64,000 nt of DNA, taken from positions 310,001-374,000 of the forward strand of contig NZ_MVBC01000002.1 of assembly GCF_002007105.1 (NCBI RefSeq), read 5' to 3'. Numbering within the stretch: the stretch's first letter is position 1; every line of letters starts with the position of its first letter. The position numbers and the translations under genes were made by a program. Below the pieces are notes generated by a model that saw only the letters and a program-made list of their open reading frames with translations, ran no database searches and was not told the origin of the DNA. Origin of the DNA: Hymenobacter sp. CRA2. GTDB lineage: Bacteria > Bacteroidota > Bacteroidia > Cytophagales > Hymenobacteraceae. Of this stretch, positions 7,649-36,568 are shown in pieces.

Positions 7649-10222
7649 ATGTCGACACCTACTCCTGCTCAGCTCTCAGCGTCTTCATTCGTTAACAGTT
7701 CCCGTGGCCGCACTGCCGGTGTCGCGCTGGGCCTGTTGCTGAGCGCTGGGCCTTTGCTGGCCCAAACCGCCACGCCGGCCCCGGCTCAGGCCAGCCCGGA
7801 AGCGAAGTCTCTCGGCCGCATTACGGGCTCGGTGCAGAGCGCCACCACCAAAGAGCCGGTGGAGTTTGCCACGGTAGCCCTGCTGGCCAAAGGCACCGAG
7901 CGGGCCGTGCTGGCTAGCGCCTGCGACGACAAGGGCCACTTCGAGCTGCGCAACGTGCCGGCGGGTGAGTACACGCTGTCGGTCAGCTTCGTGGGCTACC
8001 AGCCGCAGCGGCAGGCAGTGACCGTAACGACGGCGCAGCCGGTGCTGCAGCTGCCGCCGGTGCTGCTGGCCACCACCACGACCCAGCTGGGCGAGGTGAA
8101 AGTAACGGGCGAGCGGGAGCTGGTGGAAAGCAAGGTGGACCGGCTGGTGTACAACGCCGACAAGGACCTGACCAACGCCGGCGGCACGGCCGCGGATGTG
8201 CTGCAGAAGGCGCCGCTGCTCACCGTGGACCTCGACGGCAACCTGCAGCTGCGCGGCTCCTCCAACATCCGGGTGCTCATCAACGGCAAGCCCTCTACCC
8301 TGCTGGCTACCAACCTAGCGGAGGCGCTGAAGCAGATTCCGGCCGACCAGATCAAGTCGGTGGAGGTGATTACGGCACCTTCGGCCAAGTACGACGCGGA
8401 AGGCACGGCGGGCGTGGTGAACATCATCCTGAAAAAGAGCACCCTGGAGGGCATGAACGGCAACGTCAACGCCGGGGTGAGCAACCGCAACGGTTTCGTG
8501 GGCGTGAACCTGAACCGGCGCAAGGGCAAGCTGGGCATCAACAGCAGCCTGGGCACCAACCCCTTCTACAACCTGGCGCGCAGCGTGGGCCGCCGCACTG
8601 ACTACCTCTCCGACACCACCCAGAGCCAGCTGCAGCAGACGGGCCGCTTCACCAACATGGGCCTGGGCGGCTGGGGCCAGCTCGGCATCGACTACGACCT
8701 GACGCCCAAGGACGTGCTCAGCTTCGGGGTGCAGGGCAACTACCGCGCCTACGTCAACGACCGTTCGCAATTCACGTCCTACCAGCTGTTTCGCACCGAC
8801 GAAAGTGCCCAGCGCCGGCTGTTCGTGGACGAATACAACCGCGACATCGAGACGCGCGACGGCAACGGCAACGTGGACGTGAACTTCGGCTACACCAAGA
8901 CGCTGGCCAAGCCCAAGCAGGAGCTGAGCGTGCTGGGCCTCTACAGCCTGAACGCGGGCCATACGCGCTACCAGCTGGACCAACAACGCGGCGAGTACAC
9001 CGACTACCGCGAGAAGAGCTTCAACGACAGCCGTAACCGCGAAATCACGCTGCAGGCCGACTACGTGCAGCCCATCGACAGCACCCAGACGCTGGAAACG
9101 GGCCTGAAAACCATCATGCGCCATGTCGACAGCGACTACCGCATCGACGCGGACAGCCTGGACGGGCGCGGTTACCGCCCGGTGCCGGCCCGCTCCAATG
9201 AATTTGGCTACGACCAGAACGTGTACGCCGGCTACGCCTCCTACGGCTTTGCCCTGGGCAAGAAGTGGACGTTCAAGGGCGGGGCGCGCCTGGAGCACAC
9301 CCGCATCGACGGCAAGTTCCTGAGCAGCGGCACCCAGCTGCAAACCGACTACACCAACCTGGCGCCCAACGTGCAGGCCGCCTGGACGGTGACGCCCGAC
9401 CACACGCTGAAGCTGAGCTACTCGCGGCGCATTCAGCGGCCTGGCATCTGGTACCTGAACCCGTACATCAACACCTCGGACCGGCGCAACGTATCGGCCG
9501 GCAACCCCAACCTCAACGCGGAGCTGACCGACGCCTACGAGCTGACCTACACCACCTTCGTCAAGAAAAGCTCAGTGACCTTCTCGGGCTACTGGCGGCA
9601 GACCAACAACGCCATCGAGAGCGTGGCGCGGCTGGTACCCGGCAGCGACATTCTGCCCACGGCCGACACCACGCGCATCCTCTACACCACCTACCGCAAC
9701 TTAGCGCGCAACTCCAGCTACGGCCTCTCGGCCTTCGGCTCGACCAAGCTGACACCCAAGTGGAGCCTGAGCGGCAACGTGAACGTGTACTGGCGGCAGG
9801 TGAACAGTCCGGCCTTGGGCCTGTCGAATAGCGGGGGCATGTTCAACTTCAACCTGAACTCCTCGTGGCAGTTCGAGAAAGGCTGGAGCGCGCAGTTCTT
9901 CGCCTTCGGCAACTCCCGGCAGGTGGCCCTGCAGGGCCGCACCTCGGGCTACCGCATGTACAGCCTGGGGGCCAAAAAGGAATTCTGGGACAAGAAGGCC
10001 AACGTGGTGGTGTCGGTCATCAACCCCTTCAACCGAATCCTGGCTTTCCGCAACGAGCTGTCTTCGCCCAGCTTTGAGTCGGTGAACAACGCCTACTTCT
10101 ACAACCGGCAGATCCGGGTGAGCTTCAGCTACCGCTTCGGCAAGCTGGACAACGGGCCGAGCCGCCCGAAAAAGAGCATTCAGAACGACGACCAGAAGCA
10201 GGGCGGCGGCGGCAACGGGTGA
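7649..10222 (+). CDS. TonB-dependent outer-membrane receptor (OMP_b-brl family), second copy
   Basis: 857 residues. The N-terminus carries a Sec signal peptide after a polar leader (VALGLLLSAGPLLAQTA). A carboxypeptidase-regulatory-like domain occupies about 55-140 (GSVQSATTKEPVEFATVALL, DDKGHFELRNVPAGEYTLSV). The plug at 150-255 shows ADVLQKAPLLTVDLDGNL, RVLINGKPS and VEVITAPSAKYDAEGTAG, followed by a large barrel ending SFSYRFG and a short polar tail. Same architecture and plug motifs as the receptor at 4567 but clearly diverged, so paralogues. The identical upstream palindrome implies shared control by the MarR protein. No SusD follows; substrate unknown. Confidence 0.9.
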   Translation: MSTPTPAQLSASSFVNSSRGRTAGVALGLLLSAGPLLAQTATPAPAQASPEAKSLGRITGSVQSATTKEPVEFATVALLAKGTERAVLASACDDKGHFELRNVPAGEYTLSVSFVGYQPQRQAVTVTTAQPVLQLPPVLLATTTTQLGEVKVTGERELVESKVDRLVYNADKDLTNAGGTAADVLQKAPLLTVDLDGNLQLRGSSNIRVLINGKPSTLLATNLAEALKQIPADQIKSVEVITAPSAKYDAEGTAGVVNIILKKSTLEGMNGNVNAGVSNRNGFVGVNLNRRKGKLGINSSLGTNPFYNLARSVGRRTDYLSDTTQSQLQQTGRFTNMGLGGWGQLGIDYDLTPKDVLSFGVQGNYRAYVNDRSQFTSYQLFRTDESAQRRLFVDEYNRDIETRDGNGNVDVNFGYTKTLAKPKQELSVLGLYSLNAGHTRYQLDQQRGEYTDYREKSFNDSRNREITLQADYVQPIDSTQTLETGLKTIMRHVDSDYRIDADSLDGRGYRPVPARSNEFGYDQNVYAGYASYGFALGKKWTFKGGARLEHTRIDGKFLSSGTQLQTDYTNLAPNVQAAWTVTPDHTLKLSYSRRIQRPGIWYLNPYINTSDRRNVSAGNPNLNAELTDAYELTYTTFVKKSSVTFSGYWRQTNNAIESVARLVPGSDILPTADTTRILYTTYRNLARNSSYGLSAFGSTKLTPKWSLSGNVNVYWRQVNSPALGLSNSGGMFNFNLNSSWQFEKGWSAQFFAFGNSRQVALQGRTSGYRMYSLGAKKEFWDKKANVVVSVINPFNRILAFRNELSSPSFESVNNAYFYNRQIRVSFSYRFGKLDNGPSRPKKSIQNDDQKQGGGGNG

Positions 10223-32057: not shown

Positions 32058-33275
32058 ATGCCAACCACCCCCGCTACGGCCACCATCGACTCACCCATCG
32101 ACCGGCCGGCCCCGCACCCCGGCTACCGGTGCTGCACCCGCTGCATCATGGATACCACCGTGCCTGGTATTCAGTTCGATAGCTCGGGGGAGTGCAACTT
32201 CTGCGCCCTGCACGACAAGATGGAGCGCGACAACCCGCTGGGCGCCGCCGGCGAAGCCTACGTGCAAGAGGCGGCGGATGACATGAAACGCCTCGGCCGC
32301 GGCAAGAAATACGACTGCGTGCTGGGCGTGAGCGGCGGCCGCGACAGCAGCTTTACGCTGTGGTACTGCGTGGTGAAGCTGGGCCTGCGCCCCCTGGCCG
32401 TGCACTTCAACGACGGCTTCGGCAACCCCGTAGCCGGCGAAAACATGGTGAAGGCCTGCCGCAAGCTCGGCGTGGAGCTGCGCACCATCACCTCCGACTG
32501 GCGCGAGTCGAAAGACCTGAAGATTGCCTTTCTGAAGGCCTCGACGCCCGACATCGAGGAGGGCACCGACGTGGGCATTGCCACGGCCCTGTACGGCGTG
32601 GCGGCCAAGGAAGGCGTGCAGCGCATCATCATCGGGCAGTCGTTTCGCACCGAGGGCATTGCGCCACTGTCGTGGAACTTCCTCGACGGCAAGTACCTGA
32701 AGGCCGTGCACCGGCAGTTCGGTACGGTACCGCTGCGCAAGTGGAGCCCCACCGATCCGGGCTTCAACCTGGACCTGAAGGAAATGTTCTACTACGCGGT
32801 GGTGCGCGGCATCCGCACGGTCACCCTGCTCTACCACGTGCCCTACGTGCGGGCCGACGTGGACCAGCTGCTGGAGCGGGAACTGGACTGGGTAAACCCC
32901 GGCGCCCACTACTTCGACGACCTCTACCAGAGCGTCATTTATTACCTGAACCGCGTCAAGTTTGGCATCGACCGCCGCCTGTTCAACTACTCGGCGCTGG
33001 TGCGTTCGGGCCAGATGACGCGCGCAACGGCGCTGGCGAAGTGCCAGCACGTCAACGCCATCGAGGACGAGAAGGTCATCAACTTGTGCATCAAGCGCCT
33101 GGGCCTCACGCGCGAGGAGTTCGAGCAGATCGTGAATGCACCGGTCAAAACGTTCCGCGACTATCCCAACAACTACTCCCTGATCCGGCTGCTGCGCTGG
33201 CCCATCAAAGTAGCCAGCAAGCTGCGCCTGCTGCCCGAGTCGGCCTACGACAAGTACTTTAACTGCGGCACATAA
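32058..33275 (+). CDS. N-acetyl sugar amidotransferase (WbpG-like PP-loop ATPase)
   Basis: 405 residues. The N-terminus has a four-Cys zinc-binding pattern (YRCCTRCIMDTTVPGI, GECNFCALH). The PP-loop SGGRDSS follows near residue 100 (VLGVSGGRDSSFTLW), then IIIGQSFRTEGIAPL and a C-terminal helical domain (YPNNYSLIRLLRWPIKV). WbpG/PseA-type enzymes activate a UDP- or free sugar N-acetyl group with ATP and use ammonia to form an acetamidino group, in LPS or surface glycan synthesis. WbpG normally works with HisH- and HisF-like partners, which are absent here; a nitrilase gene stands upstream instead. The stop codon forms the first bases of a long inverted repeat. Confidence 0.85.
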   Translation: MPTTPATATIDSPIDRPAPHPGYRCCTRCIMDTTVPGIQFDSSGECNFCALHDKMERDNPLGAAGEAYVQEAADDMKRLGRGKKYDCVLGVSGGRDSSFTLWYCVVKLGLRPLAVHFNDGFGNPVAGENMVKACRKLGVELRTITSDWRESKDLKIAFLKASTPDIEEGTDVGIATALYGVAAKEGVQRIIIGQSFRTEGIAPLSWNFLDGKYLKAVHRQFGTVPLRKWSPTDPGFNLDLKEMFYYAVVRGIRTVTLLYHVPYVRADVDQLLERELDWVNPGAHYFDDLYQSVIYYLNRVKFGIDRRLFNYSALVRSGQMTRATALAKCQHVNAIEDEKVINLCIKRLGLTREEFEQIVNAPVKTFRDYPNNYSLIRLLRWPIKVASKLRLLPESAYDKYFNCGT

Positions 33276-33333
33276 TCACGGATTTAGACGGATTCATCGG
33301 ATTTCACGGATTTGGTGGACGATTGTCGTCCAG

Positions 33334-33366
33334 GTGGTGCCACGACTCTACAAGTCGTGGCACCAC
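33334..33366 (+). terminator. Internal hairpin, terminator-like, facing the plus-strand gene
   Basis: Perfect 14-bp stem, GTGGTGCCACGACT at 33334-33347 with its complement at 33353-33366, then TTCGTTTAC. Nested in the larger inverted repeat. Confidence 0.65.
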
Positions 33367-33436
33367 TTCGTTTACGCCGCACCGCCCGAAGGATGACCAA
33401 ATATCCAGTCAGTTGTCCTTACCGGCAGCTTAAAAC

Positions 33437-33469
33437 AGAAGCGCCACGGCTCAAAGCCGTGGCGCTTCT
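33437..33469 (-). terminator. Internal hairpin, terminator-like, facing the minus-strand gene
   Basis: Perfect 15-bp stem, AGAAGCGCCACGGCT at 33437-33451 with its complement at 33455-33469. Read on the minus strand it is followed by GTTTTAAGC. Confidence 0.65.
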
Positions 33470-33532
33470 TCGTCCGGACGACAATCGTCCACCAAATCCG
33501 TGAAATCCGAACAATCCGTCTAAATCCGTGAT

Positions 33533-33883
33533 TTAGGCCACGTGCAGCCAGTCTTTCTTTTGCAGCAGGCGCTCCTGGGTTTCGCGGTAGTCGGGGTCGT
33601 CCACGCAGCAGTCGACGGGGCAGACGGCCGCGCATTGAGGTTCTTCGTGGAAGCCCACGCACTCGGTGCACTTGTCCGATACGATGTAGTAGTACTCGTC
33701 GGAGACGGGCGTCTGGGGGGAGGTAGCGTCGACTTGCTTGCCGCCATCCACCTCCACGGTGCCTTTCAGCATGGTGCCGTCGGCCCAGCGCCAGTTCGCG
33801 CCGCCTTCGTAGATGGCGTTATTGGGGCATTCCGGTTCGCAGGCACCACAGTTGATGCACTCGTCGGTAATCATGATGGCCAT
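33533..33883 (-). CDS. 2[4Fe-4S] ferredoxin
   Basis: 116 residues. Two cluster motifs are visible: CINCGACEPECP near residues 9-20 and CTECVGFHEEPQCAAVCP near 72-89, matching the dicluster ferredoxins with an insert in the second motif, plus CCVDD after it. A 50-residue insert (YEGGANWRWADGTML...YYYIVSD) separates the motifs, as is common in Bacteroidota homologues. It carries electrons in the cytosol. It is divergent from an acyl-CoA reductase gene, a pairing I have seen repeatedly in this phylum. Confidence 0.92.
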   Translation of the reverse strand: MAIMITDECINCGACEPECPNNAIYEGGANWRWADGTMLKGTVEVDGGKQVDATSPQTPVSDEYYYIVSDKCTECVGFHEEPQCAAVCPVDCCVDDPDYRETQERLLQKKDWLHVA

Positions 33884-35185: not shown

Positions 35186-35485
35186 ATGCTCATTGTCAAT
35201 GAATCGGCCGAAACCGTTGCCAAAGAAACGATTCCGACCCTCCACTTCCCCCAAGAAGACGTCCTTCACACCCCCGACGAGCGTAAGCTGCGCCGCTTCG
35301 ATGCCGACCGGGCCTGCGCCCTCGGCAACAACGAGCACGGTAAGCTCGACATCTATTTCAAAACCGCCGACGGGCAGACCAAGCGCGTGCAAACCACCGT
35401 TTGGGGCGTGCACGAAAGCTACCTCACCCTGAAAGCCGGCGTCACCCTCCCGATTCGCTCCATCATCGGGTTTGACTTCTATTAA
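35186..35485 (+). CDS. Conserved hypothetical protein of about 99 residues
   Basis: 99 residues, no signal peptide or membrane segment. The second half has alternating polar/hydrophobic strands (HGKLDIYFKTADGQTKRVQTTVWGVHESYLTLKAGVTLPIRSIIGFDFY) that suggest a small beta-barrel. I do not recognise a named family. Its TAA is the first part of a long inverted repeat, as in the amidotransferase gene. Probably real, because codon use is normal and the end is so precisely placed. Confidence 0.7.
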   Translation: MLIVNESAETVAKETIPTLHFPQEDVLHTPDERKLRRFDADRACALGNNEHGKLDIYFKTADGQTKRVQTTVWGVHESYLTLKAGVTLPIRSIIGFDFY

Positions 35486-35536
35486 TCACGGATTCAGCCG
35501 GATTTTTTGGATTTCACGGATTTTGTGAACGATTAC

Positions 35537-35564
35537 AGAGCCGAAGCTTTACAGCTTCGGCTCT
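35537..35564 (+). terminator. Internal hairpin after the 99-residue gene
   Basis: AGAGCCGAAGCT / AGCTTCGGCTCT stem with a TTAC loop, followed by TTCGTTTG. Terminator-like. Confidence 0.7.
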
Positions 35565-35609
35565 TTCGTTTGAAAGCGGTTGAGCAGATATGGTCCCAAG
35601 CACAAACGC

Positions 35610-35639
35610 AAACAGCCCGGCCGCATGGCCGGGCTGTTT
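35610..35639 (-). terminator. Internal hairpin after the nucleoside phosphorylase gene
   Basis: AAACAGCCCGGCC / GGCCGGGCTGTTT perfect 13-bp stem with a GCAT loop. Read on the minus strand it is followed by TGCGTTTGTG. Confidence 0.7.
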
Positions 35640-35695
35640 AGCGGACAATCGTCCACAAAATCCGTGAAATCCGACCGATCCGGCTAAATCCGTGA

Positions 35696-36568
35696 TTAGA
35701 TGCGCGACAGGGTTTTCGCAATCAGGTCGTTGACCGTCTGGTCGCTGTTTTCGGCAAATTCGCCGGTGGCGCGGTTGGCCACGATGGCGTTCAGCGACAC
35801 GACTTCGTGGCCGAGCATGCGGCCCAGGGCGTAGTAGCCGGCCGTTTCCATCTCGAAGTTGGTCAGGCGGAAAGTGCCTTCGGCGTTGCTGTACTGCACG
35901 TGGCGCAGGCGCTCCAGCAAGTCGGGGTAGCGCAGCTCCAGGCGCAGCGAGCGGCCCTGCGGCCCGTAGAAGCCGGGGCAGGTGACGGTGTTGCCCGTGA
36001 ACATACCCGCGCCGAGCTGCTCGCGCAGCAAATCGGAGCCGAGCACGCAGTACGGGCGGTAATCCAGCCCCACGGCCTGCTGCACGGCGGTGGCAAACTC
36101 CACTTCGGCGCCGGTTTCCACCAGCGGATAAAACTGCATCAAGGACTCCAGCCCGATGGCGTGCTCCGTGACCAGGTGCGAGCCGACGGGAATATCGGGC
36201 TGCAGGCAGCCGCTGGTGCCCACGCGGATGATGCGCAGGGCAATGCGCTCCTCCAAGGGCCGGGGCTGCCGCGTCACGAAGTCGATGTTGACCAGCGCGT
36301 CCAGCTCGTTGAGTACGATGTCGATGTTGTCGGTGCCGATGCCGGTGGAAATGACCGTGAGGCGCTTGCCGCGGTAATAGCCCACGTGGGTCACAAACTC
36401 GCGCTTGGACACTTCGGTCTCGATGGAATCGAAGTGCTGGCTCACGAGGCCCACGCGGTCGGGGTCGCCGACGGTGATGATGGTATCGGAAATGTGGTCG
36501 GGCAGCAGATTCAGGTGGTAGATGCTGCCGTCGCGGTTCAGAATAAGTTCCGAGGCGGGAATCGACAT
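35696..36568 (-). CDS. Nucleoside phosphorylase (uridine phosphorylase-like)
   Basis: 290 residues. PNP/UDP family motifs: TIITVGDPDRVGLVSQHFD (phosphate loop), VISTGIGTDNIDIVLNEL, IIRVGTSGCLQPDIPVGS and NFEMETAGYYALG, the ribose-binding Met-Glu signature. It cleaves a nucleoside with phosphate to base and ribose-1-phosphate in nucleoside salvage. Base specificity (uridine or other) cannot be fixed by eye. The gene downstream in transcription is separated by the long inverted repeat. Confidence 0.9.
   Translation of the reverse strand: MSIPASELILNRDGSIYHLNLLPDHISDTIITVGDPDRVGLVSQHFDSIETEVSKREFVTHVGYYRGKRLTVISTGIGTDNIDIVLNELDALVNIDFVTRQPRPLEERIALRIIRVGTSGCLQPDIPVGSHLVTEHAIGLESLMQFYPLVETGAEVEFATAVQQAVGLDYRPYCVLGSDLLREQLGAGMFTGNTVTCPGFYGPQGRSLRLELRYPDLLERLRHVQYSNAEGTFRLTNFEMETAGYYALGRMLGHEVVSLNAIVANRATGEFAENSDQTVNDLIAKTLSRI

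Follow-up and report, generated by a model that had tools for sequence, protein, structure and literature searches.

Inverted CGGATT-word arms set against stop codons in Hymenobacter, and a predicted GxxExxY nuclease gene within some longer copies

Introduction

Among described systems, those closest to the repeats considered here are the repetitive extragenic palindromic (REP) sequences and their paired form (REPINs) with the REP-associated tyrosine transposases (RAYTs), and the REPtrons and TIRtrons; in one account (PMC3733652), REPs, REPtrons and TIRtrons come with tyrosine transposases and CGTC repeats come without a dedicated one. Here we analyse a 64,000-nucleotide (nt) stretch of Hymenobacter sp. 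CRA2 (contig NZ_MVBC01000002.1, positions 310,001 to 374,000; hereafter the window), in which two inverted-repeat elements, element 1 (33274-33533) and element 2 (35483-35698), each run from stop codon to stop codon between converging genes and consist of paired arms, built of CGGATT-type words, around two hairpins. As PMC3733652 describes them, the REP and REPIN systems with RAYTs, REPtrons and TIRtrons resemble ours in being short repeats, present singly or in inverted dimers and for the most part next to coding sequence, and REPtrons and TIRtrons do so also in having a gene-carrying version with inverted repeats on both sides. The enclosed gene of our family is of PD-(D/E)XK type by prediction whereas theirs encodes a Y1/HUH transposase, and our arms are rows of 6-9-bp words whereas theirs are GTAG- or CGTC-tagged hairpins (PMC3733652); a further difference is that our arms end tightly against stop codons and TAnnTTTG boxes. 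We rejected REPIN/RAYT membership because the own genome has no Y1_Tnp match, a CGGATT pair occurs at 0 of 13 Y1 loci and no GTAG or CGTC tag stands at the arm's outer end, (A)ATCACGG.

Intervening sequences of 23S rRNA with their S23/IVP protein (compare PMC4990558) are like ours small selfish inserts with one small protein. Ours differ in lying between protein genes, in their protein (PF13366, not PF05635) and in their words, and membership was set aside because the window elements sit between protein genes with no gene enclosed and their longer relatives enclose PF13366. Integron gene cassettes carry a recombination site, attC, close behind the stop codon, a position that our arm shares, yet here it is the repeat and not the gene that varies, since the four flanking genes of the two junctions are syntenic in all eight Hymenobacter genomes compared. 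Homing endonucleases, some of which have the PD-(D/E)XK fold, invite comparison through the cut-and-copy spread proposed below; our gene differs in having on both sides inverted arms, which occur at many dissimilar loci, and its cutting is a proposal made here. By titles and abstract starts, searches of the open-licence papers of PubMed Central (a scope outside which preprints fall) gave no description of a nuclease associated with inverted arms, and one passage of PMC8934634 mentions GxxExxY in a context unrelated to such an association.

Many stop-hugging copies, together with the gene for a predicted DNA-cutting enzyme in some longer ones, suggest an unrecognised kind of mobile DNA tucked between genes without breaking them. 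The GxxExxY family name states no function, and the agreement of flanking word with protein clade offers a direct and cheap test of the recognition target. Placement from one boundary to the next would illustrate how packed genomes can be colonised by repeats with no harm to genes; if true, a target rule of such precision that spares genes would be new, and dispersed word repeats of other kinds near gene ends would be gene-less offspring of such elements.

Results

Our data partly support what the initial annotation of this DNA made of the first junction: it read stop alignment correctly, and what it missed above all is a nuclease gene within longer copies. At the orthologue of the second junction in one relative (G007), the interior holds a gene for a GxxExxY protein (PF13366), a predicted PD-(D/E)XK nuclease. 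Across the genus we found six full-length GxxExxY genes and one broken one, in four of eight genomes, and three of the six full-length genes (L078, L079 and L080) are enclosed by CGGATT arms; these would be ends shared with an autonomous element, as in a miniature inverted-repeat transposable element (MITE) derived from an insertion sequence, only if that gene moved them. At L078 and L079 a hairpin lies between each arm and the nuclease gene. The L079 protein is scored 140.3 bits by TIGR04256 (cut-off 35) and 135.5 by PF13366 (cut-off 22), with L082 likewise exceeding the curated TIGR04256 cut-off, and 29 aligned proteins chosen from the 61 discussed below have 12 invariant columns, which include the GxxExxY motif, D70, E80 and K82. 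A profile search returned no solved structure related to GxxExxY; profile similarity to Cas4 is weak. The remaining three genes (L081-L083) stand, by eye, in inverted repeats of other words, with scores, defined as the best inverted match between the 450-nt flanks of the gene, that reach the threshold of 34 for L081 and L082 and 30 for L083. L081 and L082 occupy the same gene junction in G004 and G007 with arms worded differently (CGCTGAGG versus CGCAGAGG), as if an element's words had changed together. The broken gene (L084/L085, G007:C1:1511401-1511711) lies in two frames and has, by eye, inverted repeats of GCTGATT words at its bounds.

The same arrangement recurs in the bacterial family, where PF13366 is present in 44 of 80 genomes and 55 of 61 near-full-length GxxExxY genes reach a score of 34 between inverted arms. 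The set leaves out 15 partial or broken PF13366 rows, and its 61 genes are not 61 independent events because several are orthologous (for example, a group with a start-side distance of about 133 nt). The same score was reached by 0 of 305 dinucleotide shuffles, by 0 of 60 open reading frames (ORFs) of the window and by 1 of 143 ORFs in 23 Hymenobacter loci. On the stop side, 49 of 60 distances from arm to neighbouring gene fall between -8 and +18 nt, with start-side distances more scattered. In a sample of 148 genomes of the same phylum, 75 have GxxExxY genes. Arms are more numerous in genomes that have a CGGATT-armed nuclease (7 versus 24 genomes, p 0.010), a comparison in which the groups overlap and which was limited, by a choice made after the data had been seen, to genera g1 and g5 and to arms like those of model R1 (below).

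Protein clade and arm word go together in these cassettes. All 32 inverted-arm cassettes of clade A (motif ..GF[PQR]E) have GGAT-type words and all 20 of clade B (GPG..E) have CGCAG-type words, the word classes having been defined after the arms had been seen; outside these 52 classified cassettes are two of the 55 that are unclassified and L081, which was put in clade B by hand and fits. The rule holds in the five genomes that contain both classified clades, and a sixth, G064, has a clade B cassette and an unclassified cassette with GGAT words. When a fixed classifier was applied to 30 further loci of the phylum, which were the best-scoring rather than a random set, 13 reached 34, of which five were classified, all as clade B (four CGCAG and one tie), and eight were unclassified. 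A third GxxExxY clade (GFLEKVY) was seen elsewhere in the phylum (L230, L235, L247, L250 and L251), several of its loci having ACACGGAT-like flanking words.

To describe the arm itself we built an alignment of 30 arms (A1, consensus TAATCACGGATTTAGACGGATTTnTCGGATTnCACGGATTTTGTGGACGATTG) and derived from it a sequence-only model, R1, which at an E-value of 0.01 finds 43 arms in the own genome. It matches in all eight genus genomes (G000 to G007 in order: 43, 23, 65, 63, 4, 1, 6 and 16), the lone match in G005 being weak (E 0.004) and lost under a stricter search. An exact arm pattern retrieved 23 stretches from the species collection, every one titled Hymenobacter, and an arm search of plasmids gave no match. 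In the own genome, 22 of the 43 arms form 11 inverted pairs and 21 are solo; a search of the 840 nt behind each solo arm for a hidden partner rose above shuffles in 0 of 21. The unit is thus the single arm, since 21 of 43 lack an inverted partner, and the solos, together with the different hairpins at the H. gummosus junctions described below, contradict the earlier view of the junction as one designed module of arm, terminator, spacer, terminator and arm. Of 14 solos inspected by eye, many have a hairpin behind the arm and some have none. Within pairs the identity is 0.805, a level reached in 8 of 2000 permutations, and between pairs it is 0.773; an arm has its own partner as best match in only 3 of the 11 pairs. 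Strong within-pair homogenisation was rejected on the weakness of this signal; the reading of near-identical arms as a mark of homogenisation or recent formation is an interpretation. Several arms carry an insert of about 19 bp (AGCTTCGCTGAACTTCGTT-like) at differing word boundaries (seen in L010, L013, L018, L025 and L029, with L007 in the same group of loci, and also in C10:21678 and C7:55632), as if a second small repeat nested inside the arm. Tandem arm pairs at one gene end were seen in L051 (about 7900-8000) and at G002:C36:250092-250192 (L178).

Arm ends meet functional bases. A stop codon lies 1-4 nt before CACGG at 30 of 43 own-genome arms, against 885 of 63158 background positions (1.4%), where stops are those of frames with at least 100 open codons and the background consists of sampled positions of the same loci. 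In the relative G003, where 54 arms in 41 fetched stretches were tested, a stop falls within -1 to 5 nt of 35 arms, against 621 of 31554 background positions (2.0%); the gene calls behind both counts are crude open frames. Placement in relatives is hence neither absent nor random, in keeping with the initial annotation. In the own genome, where the arms have the letters (A)ATCACGG, TAA makes up 29 of the 30 adjoining stops, compared with 81 of 149 stops in the fetched loci. G003 arms are mostly ACCACGG, with TGA (7) or TAA (9) at distance 1, TAG in 7 of 7 cases at distance 2, TAG or TAA (two each) at distance 3 and TAA in 5 of 6 at distance 4. Because stop type tracks the end letters of the arm, the arm supplies the last stop letters in most cases. 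Over the two genomes, 13 of 97 arms have TAnnTTTG, which we take to be the Bacteroidota -7 promoter box, no more than 6 nt outside (background 65 of 53090 positions, 0.12%). This box accounts for nine of the 32 arms that lie away from stops; two are at a start codon and the other 21 have neither. Insertion at TA dinucleotides, which fits the TAA, TAG and TAnnTTTG edges, was rejected because it fails for the seven TGA edges in G003.

The four genes that flank both junctions were found in order in all eight genus genomes, which allowed the same junctions to be compared by eye. G002, G003 and G006 have inverted repeats of the TCATTGCGAG type at both junctions. CGGATT arms occupy junction 1 in G000 and G001, and junction 2 in G000, G007 and G001, where an additional small gene precedes them. 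Repeats with GCGAAGGACCT-like words fill junction 1 of G004, G005 and G007, whereas at junction 2 G004 has hairpins alone and G005 a single hairpin. The TCATTGCGAG-type copies, which are inverted around a hairpin in G002, G003 and G006, resemble the CGTC-tagged REP-like repeats described in PMC3733652; they are unrelated in sequence to the CGGATT arms and do not run exactly from stop to stop. Both the TCATCCT...GCGAAGGACCT type and the TCATTGCGAG type were seen as inverted pairs at the same convergent junctions of other species (L071-L077). In Hymenobacter gummosus, CGGATT arms stand at the same stops of both junctions around other hairpins, so the interior can change where the arms stay. H. 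rigui keeps the right arm alone at junction 1, beside an inserted gene, and has shortened arms at junction 2.

For 17 of the 54 G003 arms, the own genome also has an arm at the corresponding gene end. Identity is 0.755 between orthologous arms, 0.784 within G003, 0.721 within the own genome and 0.726 for unrelated cross pairs, an orthologue signal that is small (16 of 2000 permutations reach it). In 16 of 17 cases the own arm is closer to some own paralogue than to its orthologue, a figure biased upward since one orthologue is set against the best of many paralogues. Stop letters shift together with the arm between species (GACTGAC versus GACTAAAT; ATCTAGAC versus ATTTAAAT). Species-specific change of arms, which the initial annotation proposed to look for as concerted change, can be seen between the own genome and G003; the comparison fits turnover or conversion across loci with positions held constant, and speaks against recent insertion of all arms.

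Within the window, a scan with R1 at E up to 10 reports exactly four arms, those of elements 1 and 2. Element 1 lies between an N-acetyl sugar amidotransferase gene (TIGR03573 WbuX; 32058-33275, + strand, TAA at 33273-33275) and a 4Fe-4S ferredoxin gene of the YfhL family (33533-33883, - strand). Its left arm, a CGGATT-word repeat (33274-33331, +; model match 33273-33325), and its right arm (33476-33533, -; model match 33482-33533) measure 58 nt each, lie 144 nt apart and pair at 56 of 58 positions (97% complementary), and these values confirm the stop-to-stop inverted repeat with 58-bp arms and two mismatches that had been described. Alignment of the arms to the TAA codons of the two converging genes is borne out as well, the first base of the left arm being the second base of the + gene TAA and the last base of the right arm being the last base of the - gene TAA. 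The interior has a perfect 14-bp hairpin facing the + gene (33334-33366, +; stem 33334-33347/33353-33366), a spacer (33367-33436, no strand assigned) and a perfect 15-bp hairpin facing the - gene (33437-33469, -; stem 33437-33451/33455-33469), and related elements have differing interiors. Both hairpins are probable terminators: the perfect stems and the direction of each toward one gene stand as first reported, but the T tracts are weak and a consensus terminator scan, itself noisy (7 found versus 3.5 expected), reports neither. The predicted RNA fold of element 1 has an energy of -177 kcal/mol against a shuffle mean of -71.9 (z -19; 0 of 200 shuffles as low), and TAATCACGGATT occurs 19 times in the own genome compared with once for a reversed control pattern; a chance inverted repeat at this junction is ruled out by the fold and by this count.

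Element 2 is an independent copy 2 kb away, of the same design, which runs from TAA to TAA between converging genes and has other hairpins. Its left arm (35483-35534, +) starts at the TAA of a 99-aa gene with no Pfam or NCBIfam match (35186-35485, +) and its right arm (35646-35698, -) ends at the TAA of a nucleoside phosphorylase family gene (PF01048; 35696-36568, -). Between them lie two terminator-like hairpins (35537-35564, +, and 35609-35640, -), both reported by the terminator scan. An Rfam scan of the window gave 0 matches at the gathering score.

Discussion

We consider it probable, by a modest measure, that the junction belongs, as a member without a gene but with terminators, to a nuclease-associated family of inverted arms that is homogenising or spreading by cut-and-copy. 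As far as sequence can speak, this family has common arms, an enclosed nuclease gene in some copies and a match of clade to word, along with arm ends that meet functional bases, interiors that differ where arms are orthologous and arm sequences that change by species; recognition, cutting and mobility would be the work of the enzyme. Gene-carrying members run in the order arm, GxxExxY gene, arm, and two of the three CGGATT examples have hairpins that separate the gene from both arms; the PD-(D/E)XK enzyme they encode would take its own arm words, or a structure formed by the inverted arms, as the target of recognition and DNA cutting. The cut might then be repaired by copying the arm and interior sequence from another copy, and such repair could carry the nuclease gene into arm pairs, exchange interiors and homogenise arms across loci. 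Gene-less copies and solos would arise by loss of the interior or of one arm, copies would survive where they are harmless, in the space from a stop codon to whichever functional base follows, and the enclosed hairpins would separate neighbouring transcripts. A bolder claim, namely that this is a new class of mobile DNA in which the GxxExxY enzyme recognises its own periodic words and sets or copies inverted arms exactly at gene boundaries (stop codons, promoter boxes and ribosome-binding sites), the end letters of the arm completing the stop, strikes us as possible but doubtful.

Several results weigh against the cut-and-copy account. No cutting, movement or fresh insertion was seen, and inspection by eye of three own pairs (J1, C33 and C42) found no target duplication of at least 3 nt. 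The cut-and-copy model alone does not explain the stop-codon exactness of the arm ends: one insertion could put the two arms on two stops only if those stops had been touching beforehand or the intervening space was replaced. Since 17 arms lie at the same gene ends in two species, those arms are not recent insertions. Nor do arms need the nuclease in order to persist, as there are 63 of them in G003, which lacks a PF13366 match. In a cross-locus control on the first 32 loci, 125 of 992 left-versus-right pairs reach 34, compared with 30 of 32 own pairs, because loci share words or are orthologous. Flanking by inverted repeats is not special to GxxExxY, given that 18 of 30 PF05635 (four-helix 23S_rRNA_IVP) genes (L112-L141; 0 of 300 shuffles) and 10 of 13 Y1_Tnp genes of the genus (L252-L264, with 600-nt flanks and repeats that are not CGGATT pairs) reach the same score. 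The signal is weaker in the wider phylum, where a repeat run brought 12 of 30 loci to 34 (one short locus was cut differently; 0 of 300 shuffles); three of eight loci from the plasmid collection (Bernardetia, Bacteroides and Sphingomonas) exceed 100 shuffles of their own. As to clade and word, the clade B locus L243 (score 25, below 34) counts as GGAT, covariation of arm and protein in clade A (rho 0.70, 0 of 2000 permutations) is confounded with host genus, and that in clade B is not significant (rho 0.155, 237 of 2000 permutations). The inverted words that flank the PF05635 loci were seen to be of a third kind, such as AAGACACAAGAC, TTAGATGTTAGAT and GTTAGT.

A host function for the arm as a spacer before a terminator fits much of these data and is a further point against cut-and-copy spread. 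On this explanation the arm is a 3'-untranslated-region element, a functional spacer between stop and terminator that serves transcript ends or insulates convergent genes, into which the nuclease merely homes. Arms do lie between stop and hairpin, including several of the 14 inspected solos, the 17 shared gene ends retain an arm though its sequence drifts, and about 60 arms persist in G003, which has no nuclease match. Yet congeners have unrelated repeat families or none at the same junctions, copy number runs from 1 to 65 within one genus, and some arms adjoin TAnnTTTG boxes or start codons instead of stops; we regard a host spacer as unlikely.

Less likely again is a passenger nuclease, perhaps a gene of repair or defence, that came repeatedly into repeats already present, with the match of clade to word reflecting descent and not recognition. 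The weak profile similarity to Cas4 would suit such a gene, the match is partly structured by host genus, which confounds the clade A correlation, and Y1_Tnp and PF05635 genes are likewise flanked by inverted repeats. Against this, the five genomes that hold both clades follow the clade-word rule, and the arms that enclose 55 of the 61 genes are of several different words, from which arms and gene appear to travel together.

That the elements are REPIN/RAYT repeats or ordinary MITEs moved by a known transposase we judge very improbable. They are short and dispersed, occurring as inverted pairs and solos near gene ends, and Y1 transposase genes are present in six of the eight genus genomes. The own genome, however, has 43 arms and no match to Y1_Tnp, the one transposase family covered by the search; the Y1 loci of relatives show a CGGATT arm pair at 0 of 13 and a single arm at one (L253), and the three pairs inspected by eye lack a target duplication. 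The unit of Y1_Tnp loci L255 and L257 resembles, by eye, the window hairpin at 33334-33366, and the stem word of that hairpin occurs also away from arms; on these two grounds the terminator stems of the window may derive from a REP-like family of their own.

Ordinary convergent terminators combined with an inverted duplication of chance or local origin, for which two hairpins serving two genes and the passing of the terminator scan by both element 2 hairpins could be cited, have next to no standing beside 43 dispersed copies, a stop alignment about 50-fold over background and a fold z of -19.

Beyond the phylum, the search for GxxExxY relatives matched 8 of 72,556 plasmid records with one query, and two queries of viral contigs returned none. 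In Sphingomonas parapaucimobilis the nuclease gene lies between fabD and fabG, its left arm following directly on the fabD TAA and its right arm ending 3 nt before the fabG GGAGG.

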